This document shows, piece after piece, positions 5,051 to 15,408 of a DNA stretch of 64,000 nucleotides. How positions within the stretch are numbered: position 1 is the stretch's first letter; each line of letters begins with the position of its first letter. The stretch covers positions 1 to 64,000 of the forward strand of contig CACKSH010000006.1 in assembly GCA_902602765.1 (NCBI GenBank). Reading direction: 5' to 3'. Below the pieces are notes generated by a model, which did no database searches, was not told the DNA's origin, and worked only from the letters and a program-made list of their open reading frames with translations. This DNA comes from Paracoccaceae bacterium. Lineage in GTDB: Bacteria > Pseudomonadota > Alphaproteobacteria > Rhodobacterales > Rhodobacteraceae. The position numbers and the translations under genes are program-made.

Positions 5051-5076
5051 TTAATTAAGCGGGTGTAATACCAATT

Positions 5077-5257
5077 ATGTTGGTGCCTGTTTTAATCCAG
5101 GTGAAAAGGGAATGCGAGAGTGCAATTTAAAAAGCATAAATCGCAGCCGCCCTCGCGACCGTGACCAAATTGAAGTACAAATGCCACTGACTATAAGTTG
5201 GGAAGGCTGTACTTCGGGGGGCAACCCCAATTTGCAAGCCGGGAGACCTGCCAACAT
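5077..5257 (+). ncRNA. cobalamin riboswitch
   Basis: B12 box AAGCCGGGAGACCTGCC (5236-5252), GCCACTG, GGGAAGG, P1 ATGTTGG/CCAACAT; upstream of DUF1636-cobW-cobN. Confidence 0.92.
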
Positions 5258-5357
5258 GAGACCAACTTGGGCGAGGTGACCTGATGTCGGATGAAGGCCG
5301 GTTCAATAAAAACTGCTTATCAGCCGCTGTTATCTTCCCATAAAATAGGAAAACGCA

Positions 5358-11591: not shown

Positions 11592-12319
11592 AAAATATTG
11601 GGCAATTACATGGTGTAGGTCTCGGTCCAGGTGCTACTGATTTAATGTCAGTAAGAGCCGATCGGTTAATCCGTGGTGCGAAGCATATAGCTTTTTTTAG
11701 AAAAATGGGTAGTAAGGGTCATGCATGGACTATTGCTTCCCCTCTTTTATCTCGTGATGTTAATGAAATCGCATTAGAGTATCCAGTAACGACCGAGATC
11801 AAACTGACAGATCCACGCTATAATGAAGTTCTATCCGAGTTTTACGCAAATTGTTGCAATAGACTGAAAGAATACTTGGGAAATGGTGAAGATGTAGTTG
11901 TTTTATGCGAGGGTGATCCGTTTTTCTATGGCTCATTTATGCACTTGCATTCCAGGCTTGCCAATTTTGCGCGAATACAAGTGGTTCCGGCTACAACTGG
12001 TATGTCAGGAGCTTGGACTGCAACTGGGCAGCCTATTACGTGGGGCGATGACGTTTTGACAGTTTTAATGGGCACAATGCCTAAAGAAGAACTTGTTTAC
12101 CAAATGAATAAAACAGATGCTCTTGTGATTATGAAGATTGGAAAGAATTATCAAAAAGTTAAGGCTGCTTTAAAAGAAGCTAATCTTTTTAATCGAGCCT
12201 GGTCGGTACACTATGCGACAATGGAAAATCAAAAAGTTTTAAAACTTAGTGACTATCTCAGTGAGGAAATGCCCTACTTTGGCATTATACTGGTTCATGG
12301 CACGGGACGAAGACCATGA
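11588..12319 (+). CDS. cobI: precorrin-2 C20-methyltransferase
   Basis: GVGLGPGATDLMSVRA, VVLCEGDPFFYGSFM. Confidence 0.95.
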   Translation: MKNIGQLHGVGLGPGATDLMSVRADRLIRGAKHIAFFRKMGSKGHAWTIASPLLSRDVNEIALEYPVTTEIKLTDPRYNEVLSEFYANCCNRLKEYLGNGEDVVVLCEGDPFFYGSFMHLHSRLANFARIQVVPATTGMSGAWTATGQPITWGDDVLTVLMGTMPKEELVYQMNKTDALVIMKIGKNYQKVKAALKEANLFNRAWSVHYATMENQKVLKLSDYLSEEMPYFGIILVHGTGRRP

Positions 12320-13104
12320 TCAAAATGAGTCCTCATAGTGAAAACAAAAAGGGAAGTTTGTTTGTTGTCGGTCTTGGCCCGGGTGATGTGGATATGATTT
12401 TACCAAAAGTGGCTAAAGTTATTTCTTCGGCAACAGATATTGTTGGATACGGTCCATATGTCGACAGAATTAAACCTCGGTCAAACCTGACGATACACTC
12501 CAGTGATAATCGCGTAGAATTAGAAAGAGCAAGGTTGGCTCTTGAGTTAGCTTTGGACGGGAAAACTGTGGTAGTTGTTTCATCTGGAGACCCCAGTGTT
12601 TTTGCAATGGCTTCTGCTGTTTTTGAGGTAATTGAAAATGGCCCAACCGAGTTTTTTGAAATAAATGTCACGGTTTTGCCTGGAGTGACTGCGATGTTAG
12701 CTGCTTCGGCTGAGGTTGGAGCATTTCTTGGACATGATTTTTGCACCATAAATCTTAGTGATAATCTAAAGCCATGGGATGTAATTGAGAAAAGATTGAG
12801 ACTTGCAATCCAAGGTGACTTTGCGATCGCGCTTTACAACCCAAGATCAAAGGCGCGTCCTGACGGATTTAAAAAAACTTTGTCAATATTGATTGATGAG
12901 GGTGTTGGTGATCGTTTGATAGCCTTTGCAAGGGATGTAAGTTTACCTTCGCAATATCTATCTTCGATGCGAATTGTTGATGCTACTCCTGAAATGGCTG
13001 ATATGCGCACTGTTGTTTTAGTCGGCTCATCATATACTAGAAAGATCAAGCGGGATGGAGTGAAAAATTTTTATATCTATACGCCAAGATATTATGGAGA
13101 ATAG
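12316..13104 (+). CDS. cobJ: precorrin-3B C17-methyltransferase
   Basis: VVGLGPGDVDMILPK, VVVVSSGDPSVFAMA, LPGVTAMLAASAEVGAFLGHDF. Confidence 0.95.
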   Translation: MIKMSPHSENKKGSLFVVGLGPGDVDMILPKVAKVISSATDIVGYGPYVDRIKPRSNLTIHSSDNRVELERARLALELALDGKTVVVVSSGDPSVFAMASAVFEVIENGPTEFFEINVTVLPGVTAMLAASAEVGAFLGHDFCTINLSDNLKPWDVIEKRLRLAIQGDFAIALYNPRSKARPDGFKKTLSILIDEGVGDRLIAFARDVSLPSQYLSSMRIVDATPEMADMRTVVLVGSSYTRKIKRDGVKNFYIYTPRYYGE

Positions 13105-13842
13105 CTAATGCTTAAGCCACTCCACAATCTCTGCTGGCGAATTATAAGTTATTCTCTCTGGAAGCTTTGGTCTGTTTATCATTATAACAGGCAACTTGAG
13201 CCTGCGACCCGCGAGCAACTTAGATACAGCTCCAGTGCCACCAGAGTTTTTACAGATAATAATATTTACTTCATTCTCACTCATCAATTTAATGTCATGA
13301 GAAACTTCGAAGGGTCCCCGCGAGATAATCGTATGAGCGTTTTTAAGAGGCAAACTTCCTTCAAATGGATCAACCAGACGCAAAATATATTTATGCTGTT
13401 GAGCAATTTTAAATTCAGGAACTTGTATTCGGCCAATTGCGAGGAAAACTGTTCTTGGTTTATAACTTTTGAGCATAATTGCAGCCGCTTTTACACTGTC
13501 AACATTTTTCCAATTATCGCCAGGTTCTTCAACCCAAGGATTTCGTGTCAACGCCGCAAAGGGTATTCTCAAGTCGGTACAAGCTTTAAAAGTATTCCAG
13601 CTAATTTGTTCTGCAAATGGATGTGTCGCATCGATAACGTGGGTAATTTTGTTTTGAACAATGTAATCACACAGACCCTCTGGACCTCCAAAGCCTCCAA
13701 CACGAATAGGTATAGGTTGAGGCTTAGTTCGCTTGACACGGCCAGCAAAAGAAAGGGTGGCATTAATTTTGGCAACTGCCACCAGCTTACTAAGATGAGT
13801 GGCTTCCGATGTCCCGCCGAGTATCAAAAGGTTTTGTGACAT
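13105..13842 (-). CDS. cobK: precorrin-6A reductase
   Basis: MSQNLLILGGTSEATHLS, HVIDATHPFAEQIS; ATG at 13842 with AAGGA Shine-Dalgarno; ORF-track start at 13860 (GTG) is less likely. Confidence 0.93.
   Translation of the reverse strand: MSQNLLILGGTSEATHLSKLVAVAKINATLSFAGRVKRTKPQPIPIRVGGFGGPEGLCDYIVQNKITHVIDATHPFAEQISWNTFKACTDLRIPFAALTRNPWVEEPGDNWKNVDSVKAAAIMLKSYKPRTVFLAIGRIQVPEFKIAQQHKYILRLVDPFEGSLPLKNAHTIISRGPFEVSHDIKLMSENEVNIIICKNSGGTGAVSKLLAGRRLKLPVIMINRPKLPERITYNSPAEIVEWLKH
13108..13839 (+). other. full-length antisense ORF (243 codons) across cobK, with SD and operon-like spacing to cobJ and cobL; coding status unknown
   Basis: GGAGA (13096-13100) 7 nt before ATG 13108; TGA at 13837-13839; longest ORF opposite a recognised gene in the supplied ORF track. 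Confidence 0.4.
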
Positions 13843-15037
13843 GAAAAATCCTTGGCTCACGATAATTGGTATAGGTGAAAGCGGTTTACAGTATCTTGCA
13901 GATGTAAGTCAAAACCGACTTGAATCTTCAGATATTATAATTGGACCACCAAGACATCTACGTCTCTTAGGCTTGTCTGGAAGTAAGGTTTTAGAGTGGC
14001 CCGTACCATTTAGTGACGGTTTAAAACTACTCGATAAATATAGAGGCAAGAAAGTTGTCGCTTTAGTCTCGGGCGACCCGTTTTGGTATGGCGCTGCAGC
14101 CACTATTCTGCGAAAGTTTTCCTTTGACGATATTGAGGTTTTTCCTGGCCCATCAACATTTGGTTGGGCTGCTGCGAGGATGGGTTGGTCAATTGAGGAT
14201 ATTTCATGCGTCGGATTACATGCAAAACCCGTTGAACATATTAGGTCGTTAATCGCGCCAAAACGAAAAATATTAGCTTTAATGCGAGATGGTGATCAGG
14301 TTAAATCGCTGGCTCATTACTTATCTAAACTGGGTTTTGGTCAAACCAAGATCCACGTTTTAGAAGCTTTGGGTGGAAATAATGAAAGAATAAGGGAAAT
14401 TGCAGCCGAAGAATACAATTTAGTTGACGTTAAGCATCCTGTATGCGTAGCAATTTGCGTTGATGGTCTGGGCTCGGCAATTCCTTTGTCTACTGGCATT
14501 GATGATAAATTCTTTGAAAATGATGGCCAAATAACAAAAAGTCAAATTAGGGCATTAACTATAACCGCTTTGGCTCCACAATACGGCCAACATTTGTGGG
14601 ACTTGGGTGCAGGGTCAGGTTCAGTAAGTATTGAGTGGCTTATGCGTGATAAATCATTGTATGCCACTGCAGTTGAGAGAGACCCATCTCGTTGCGCTAT
14701 TATTGAGCAAAATGTCAAGAACCTGGGCTTAGATAATCTATCTCTCCATAACGGCTCTAACATGGAGGTAATTATGACACTTAAGCCACCCCACGCTGTC
14801 TTTGTAGGTGGGGGGTTAACAAAAGAATTAATGAAAAAATTGTGGGCAATTGTTCCAAGAAAAACCCGCTTTGTTGCAAATTCTGTTACTTTGGAAACTG
14901 AAACTATATTACAAGATGCTCGAAATGAATATGGTGGAAATTTAATTCGCTTTGATATTTCAACAGCCAGAGCAATTGGTTCAAAGAACTTATGGCAACC
15001 CGCTTATCCGATAACACAATGGAGTATTGAAAAATGA
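13841..15037 (+). CDS. cobL: precorrin-6Y C5,15-methyltransferase (decarboxylating)
   Basis: WLTIIGIGESGL, VSGDPFWYGAA, second domain HLWDLGAGSGSVSIEW; ATG 13841 preferred over ORF-track 13799. Confidence 0.95.
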   Translation: MKNPWLTIIGIGESGLQYLADVSQNRLESSDIIIGPPRHLRLLGLSGSKVLEWPVPFSDGLKLLDKYRGKKVVALVSGDPFWYGAAATILRKFSFDDIEVFPGPSTFGWAAARMGWSIEDISCVGLHAKPVEHIRSLIAPKRKILALMRDGDQVKSLAHYLSKLGFGQTKIHVLEALGGNNERIREIAAEEYNLVDVKHPVCVAICVDGLGSAIPLSTGIDDKFFENDGQITKSQIRALTITALAPQYGQHLWDLGAGSGSVSIEWLMRDKSLYATAVERDPSRCAIIEQNVKNLGLDNLSLHNGSNMEVIMTLKPPHAVFVGGGLTKELMKKLWAIVPRKTRFVANSVTLETETILQDARNEYGGNLIRFDISTARAIGSKNLWQPAYPITQWSIEK

Positions 15038-15408
15038 TTGTATCTGGCTTTGGTTTTCGAAGTAATGCAACCGTTGACAGCTTCAGAAGTGCTTTTGAAA
15101 ATACAATATCTAAACATAAATTTTCTAAACCTTTGGTAGTTGCGGTTCCACAAGATAAGGTTAACCACAACTCATTAATTTTATTTGCTAGAGAAATTGG
15201 TTGCAAGATTTTGGCAATAAATCCAAGTGATATAGAAAGTATGCAGACAGAAACGAATTCTGCCATATCAGAGCGCTTTCGCAATACTGGCAGTGTATCA
15301 GAGGCTTGTGCTTTAGTTGCGGCAGGTTCTGAAGCAGAATTAATTGTCTTCCGTGAAATTTCGGCTGACCGGCGCGCAACATGTTCAATAGCCAAGGGCA
15401 AATTTTAA
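15034..15408 (+). CDS. cobE: cobalamin biosynthesis protein CobE (CbiG C-terminal-like)
   Basis: [13 protein letters not shown]..., [13 protein letters not shown]; position between cobL and cobM. Confidence 0.85.

Follow-up and report, generated by a model that had tools for sequence, protein, structure and literature searches.

In bacterial operons, ribosomes pass from one cistron to the next where stop and start codons overlap, and untranslated stretches of RNA suffer Rho-dependent termination. The gal operon is an example of such translational coupling and relief of polarity (PMC9239205), and Rho selectively terminates untranslated and antisense RNA (PMC13323073). A noncontiguous operon, menE-menC-MW1733-ytkD, was described in Staphylococcus aureus by Saenz-Lahoya et al. 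2019 (reviewed in PMC7154746). Like the cob locus that is the subject of this work, it has an opposite-strand gene inside a co-directional operon, so that the polycistronic RNA must cross this gene as antisense (PMC7154746). Open reading frames embedded antisense to annotated genes, which the frame described below resembles in this respect, are known from E. coli O157:H7 (ano, laoB, pop and asa; PMC5960689, PMC5810103, PMC7103648, PMC6294744). In the cobH-I-J-K-L series of Ensifer and 'Pseudomonas denitrificans', stop/start overlaps of the adjacent genes from cobH to cobL, cobK included, are reported in a section of PMC4070679.

Organization of the Locus

The window (the whole 64,000-nt stretch of DNA analysed, from a Paracoccaceae bacterium) carries a plus-strand cob series within which cobK has the opposite orientation. 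The cobJ gene (precorrin-3B C17-methyltransferase; 12316..13104, plus strand; TIGR01466, 259 bits, above cut-off) is followed by cobK (precorrin-6A reductase; 13105..13842, minus strand; PF02571, E = 6.6e-62; NF005968, above cut-off) and then by cobL (precorrin-6Y methyltransferase, a CbiE-CbiT fusion; 13841..15037, plus strand; TIGR02467 and TIGR02469, both above cut-off), the first gene past the inverted segment. Opposite cobK, the plus strand holds an uninterrupted frame of 243 codons, from ATG to TGA (13108..13839), in exact codon register with cobK. The cobJ stop codon, TAG, occupies positions 13102-13104, and the ATG begins 3 nt later; a Shine-Dalgarno-like GGAGA lies inside the end of cobJ, 7 nt 5' of this ATG (13096..13100, plus strand; anti-SD duplex energy -6.4 kcal/mol). 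The frame is, in other words, a complete ORF with a start signal. Its TGA (13837-13839) is the complement of the cobK Ser2 codon, TCA, and the cobL ATG, at 13841, follows 1 nt after it. In CATG (13840..13843, both strands), cobK and cobL share part of their start codons in head-to-head orientation, a spacing that recurs in 91 of 133 relatives with an open frame; any cobK promoter must therefore lie inside cobL. An earlier reading of this DNA, made from the letters alone (the sequence-only reading), had pointed out the ORF, its register with cobK, the GGAGA and the spacing at both ends, and all of these agree with the sequence.

A cobalamin riboswitch (5064..5269, plus strand; RF00174, 95.7 bits) is located upstream of the plus-strand cob series, and is likely to be the leader of the transcript that would cross cobK; we infer that this transcript reaches cobL. 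A second cobalamin riboswitch (RF00174; 2666-2860, minus strand) forms with it an opposite-strand pair flanking the start of the cob region. Scans of the region for promoters and terminators gave matches at chance level only. On the minus strand, an ORF of 165 aa (14904-15401) lies across from the last part of cobL and the small gene that comes after it.

Absence of Stop Codons from the Antisense Frame

When an antisense frame shares the codon register of cobK, its stop codons correspond exactly to the cobK codons TTA, CTA and TCA. As the sequence-only reading had noted, cobK has 22 leucine codons, none of which is TTA or CTA, and no TCA except at Ser2 (13 other serine codons are present). In the 38 other genes of the window, TTA and CTA make up 41.5% of leucine codons, in line with the earlier remark that TTA is common nearby, and TCA makes up 26.5% of serine codons. 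At this codon usage, 12.6 in-register antisense stops would be expected in cobK, and none was found (P(0) = 1.4e-7). The longest in-register antisense open run was 244 codons in cobK versus 121 in any of the 38 other genes. A comparison of codon frequencies had been proposed in the sequence-only reading, which allowed that such an ORF might be likely at the codon usage of this DNA; chance and codon usage are ruled out as explanations by the P value above.

The cobI-cobJ-(inverted cobK)-cobL order is found across the family to which the window belongs, in other families of the class, and on named plasmids from Rhodobacterales, Hyphomicrobiales and Sphingomonadales; as this distribution shows, the order is an old one. 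Loci of relatives were gathered by similarity to CobK, regardless of whether the frame was open, and the number of stops expected in each was calculated from the codon usage of a few neighbouring cob genes. In 155 of 166 non-redundant loci with this order, the interval from the cobJ stop to cobL had not a single stop in register. The entire set contained 79 in-register stops versus 309 expected. Without eight loci assigned to a closed class, which was defined after the counts were seen, 3 stops remained versus 231.9 expected, with 674 and 821 in the other two frames; being related, these loci cannot be counted as independent trials, although at 45-55% protein identity third positions have reached saturation, and several of the AT-rich lineages are separate. 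Where at least three stops were expected (28 loci), 19 loci were stop-free, versus 0.4 under a Poisson distribution. The expectation fitted to GC content overshoots in AT-rich loci, and no claims rest on it; a codon ranking on stop-free loci is circular for TTA, CTA and TCA, and the claims made here use unselected counts.

The effect is clearly seen in loci of low GC content. No stops were present in the window (GC 0.41; 13.4 expected in this comparison), L148 (GC 0.40; 12.9 expected), L189 (GC 0.445; 9.1 expected), L033 (GC 0.49; 11.0 expected), L052 (GC 0.51; 10.0 expected) or L151 (GC 0.53; 8.7 expected). In the tree, the window, L148, and the group of L033, L052 and L151 fall in separate parts. 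The open-frame signal is independent of GC-rich genomes. The sequence-only reading had considered that relatives sharing the inversion might carry antisense stops at a neutral frequency; this is refuted in 155 of the 166 loci, but eight lineages do carry stops, most of them at the neutral level.

In current annotations of nine named alphaproteobacterial plasmids, no CDS is placed in the antisense frame. The PLSDB gene table lacks cobJ for L253 and L258 (Rhizobium leguminosarum Ta9k pRL2 and Rhizobium sp. C104), where the flanking cob genes are listed; the gene may be frameshifted or just unlisted.

Junctions of the Frame and a Model for Its Function

In most relatives, the cobJ stop marks the beginning of the frame (ATGA or TRATG) and the cobL start its end (ATGNNTGA). 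The ATG was found at position -1 of the cobJ stop (ATGA) in 95 of 133 open loci and at +2 in a further 19, i.e., in 114 of 133 together, and the TGA was found at +5 of cobL in 98 of 133. Thus, as in coupled cistrons, the start adjoins or overlaps the upstream stop, and the stop overlaps the downstream start. The base that makes the ATG lies at the wobble position of a codon in cobJ as well as in cobK. Among the loci with a GC content of at least 0.6, the last cobJ wobble base was A in 85 of 114, versus an A usage of 7.7% (P = 3e-69), and histidine at this site was encoded by CAT and CAC in a ratio of 85:20, versus 462:398 elsewhere. At the other end, the wobble base of cobL codon 2, which makes the TGA, was T in 89 of these 114 loci versus 12.8%. 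In-register stops just upstream of the start do occur (at -4 in L256, and in L052). Since stops are tolerated upstream but not downstream of it, the start codon is the first codon of the protected unit.

We propose, with a probability of roughly 0.8, that the frame serves as a conduit, by which the polycistronic RNA would stay occupied by ribosomes all the way from cobJ to cobL and polarity would be prevented. After finishing cobJ, ribosomes would restart at the start codon that overlaps or closely follows its stop, translate the full length of the strand opposite cobK, and terminate at the start of cobL; the cob mRNA would thereby be without a gene-length, untranslated, pyrimidine-richer antisense gap. 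What is selected would be an unbroken frame that begins with a start codon and closes with a stop, the product being a by-product. The benefit would be expression of cobL and later genes from a shared promoter, through prevention of termination (probably by Rho), decay or pairing with cobK mRNA, and perhaps through delivery of ribosomes to cobL. Read-through transcription, actual translation of the frame, and the role of Rho are the components of this model that we infer from sequence.

It is possible, if unlikely, that ribosome delivery is the main benefit, such that handing ribosomes on from cobJ to cobL fixes the CobJ:CobL stoichiometry and no termination shield is involved. The coupling-type overlaps at both ends of the frame (ATGA and ATGNNTGA), seen in most loci, would suit this purpose. 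However, cobL usually carries its own Shine-Dalgarno sequence (median anti-SD energy -5.2), and a handover at the cobL start would be compatible with early stops if an internal start came after them, whereas all of the ca. 240 codons are clean. Shielding is favoured over mere handover because cobL usually has this sequence and because the whole length is protected.

With respect to Rho, the antisense RNA was higher in C relative to G than the flanking genes in 107 of 141 loci, the excess being small (mean log2 of -0.01 versus -0.12). A search of 20 genomes recovered rho from 18, as a partial gene in one of these (G012). Neither the MAG of the window (G000, 82% complete) nor G322 (96% complete) yielded a convincing rho, although the two are AT-rich genomes with open frames; either assembly gaps or a real loss would account for this.

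Synonymous Sites of cobK and the Encoded Peptide

The frame could also be a functional antisense protein gene overlapping cobK, as reported for ano, laoB and pop of E. coli O157:H7. It is a long ORF with a start, a Shine-Dalgarno-like sequence and a stop, and its position is conserved across several orders. On the other hand, the predicted peptide had no match in Pfam, and its sole NCBIfam match had an E value of 0.039, far below the family cut-off. A known protein family is rejected by these searches, which bears out the remark in the sequence-only reading that the peptide resembles no known family.

In the cobK register, a synonymous substitution in cobK nearly always replaces the amino acid encoded on the opposite strand. 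Among distant pairs, the excess codon identity was 0.036 for cobK versus 0.044 for cobL, 0.033 for cobI and 0.019 for cobJ, and profiles along the gene agreed. Among 12 close Rhizobium loci, fourfold divergence was 0.264 for cobK versus 0.265 for cobL, 0.268 for cobH and 0.254 for cobM, while no stop-complement codon was present inside the frame in the same loci. Thus, purifying selection on the encoded antisense amino acid sequence was not detected in either synonymous-site test. Since cobK synonymous sites are as free as those of neighbouring genes, selection appears to act on the openness of the frame and not on the peptide. A peptide that is free to change, from which only stops are removed, is what one would expect if the frame were selected for being translated. 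We therefore regard a functional antisense protein as very unlikely. The sequence-only reading had preferred a polarity shield to a real protein, and the two tests of synonymous sites support this choice, the involvement of Rho being conjectural.

Composition and Gene Context

If TTA, CTA and TCA were simply rare, the frames would be open as a result of composition or codon usage. This applies to loci with a GC content above 0.7, where only about 0.2-0.3 stops are expected in each, but not to the window, where the three codons account for 37.5% of the leucine and serine codons of cobI, cobJ and cobL. Stop-complement codons numbered 0 of 35 in cobK versus 57 of 152 in cobI, cobJ and cobL, while other A-ending codons were used at the same rate (64 of 158, or 0.405, in cobK; 214 of 533, or 0.402, in cobI, cobJ and cobL). 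Since these other codons are used equally, there is no general third-base effect, and a general avoidance of A-ending codons in cobK is ruled out. Avoidance in cobK is restricted to the three codons that complement stops.

Further evidence comes from cobK in other gene orders, where it mostly shares a strand with cbiD and converges with cobM (as shown in L013), and where no transcript need cross cobK as antisense. None of 51 such loci with a GC content below 0.66, matched in GC, was free of stop-complement codons, and this holds even within one genus. In family f41, two loci with inverted cobK between cobJ and cobL (L104 and L192; GC 0.50-0.53) had no stops, while 19 loci with a cbiD-cobK-type order (GC 0.48-0.61) had 1-12 stops each. 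Stop avoidance is restricted to the order with cobK inverted between cobJ and cobL, and the 51 loci rule out that it is a property of cobK itself. An artefact of composition is refuted for loci with a GC content below about 0.65, and for the trait in general its likelihood is negligible. Read-through of the cobJ stop to yield a CobJ-antisense fusion, suggested by the fact that in the window the frame is in phase with cobJ (cobJ TAG, CTA, ATG), is refuted as a conserved trait and almost certainly does not explain the frame, since among 81 loci the two are in phase only in the window, being offset by 1 in 76 and by 2 in 4.

Lineages with a Closed Frame

The eight closed lineages are L003-L005, which belong to the window's own genus, L110, L128, L163, L233 and L237. 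None of the eight has a start codon at the cobJ stop. Among loci with a GC content of at most 0.605, an in-register ATG near the cobJ stop was found in 24 of 26 open loci versus 1 of 9 stop-bearing loci (P = 1.6e-5); the sole stop-bearing locus with an ATG, L158, has a single stop, about 22 nt before cobL. The open frame and the start codon are lost together.

In L128, L233 and L237, cobK and cobL are separated by 70-137 nt, which could provide room for a cobL promoter. L003-L005, L110 and L163 have no longer cobK-cobL gap to account for the loss. L163 belongs to the same genus as L189, and its loss is a recent one, since its genus sisters L189 and L191 are open. Closed loci presumably still make CobL, and so the trait appears to be dispensable in some settings.

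Within the window's GTDB genus (L003, L004, L005 and L027 versus L023, L024 and L025), some members have an inverted cobK with a closed frame, while in others the only cobK is 27-30% identical and lies outside the setting of cobJ and cobL. The cobK of the window is no closer to that of own-genus members than to that of other genera, which suggests different histories of the cob genes within the genus.

Discussion

We consider it probable that the cob frame represents an undescribed class of genetic element, a gene-length frame selected only to be translated, its product irrelevant, which lets an operon cross an opposite-strand gene at a cost paid in the codon usage of that gene. A search of open-licence papers returned no account of a frame whose sole reason to stay open is its translation. 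If the proposal is true, translation without a useful product is itself selected, over the length of a gene and in several bacterial orders, and a comparison of lineages that have the frame with those that lack it, within one and the same operon, provides a natural assay of polarity. It would explain how operons can hold inverted genes, and would give a constraint on codon usage an unexpected cause, TTA, CTA and TCA being avoided because of the opposite strand. It also calls for caution, since a conserved open antisense frame is not evidence for a conserved protein.

The section of PMC4070679 on the cobH-I-J-K-L overlaps of Ensifer and 'Pseudomonas denitrificans' mentions no antisense frame, unlike the present account. 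In the noncontiguous operon, the crossing is described as an internal untranslated region that pairs with the antisense mRNA (PMC7154746), whereas the cob crossing is an uninterrupted frame with conserved junctions, the translation of which is argued from sequence. The ano, laoB, pop and asa genes are reported as protein-coding with their own expression, whereas the cob frame is tied to the sense operon at both ends; unlike in these genes, its openness is conserved across orders and its peptide is not. Finally, in known coupled cistrons the frame is a gene wanted for its product, whereas the cob frame is the back of another gene.
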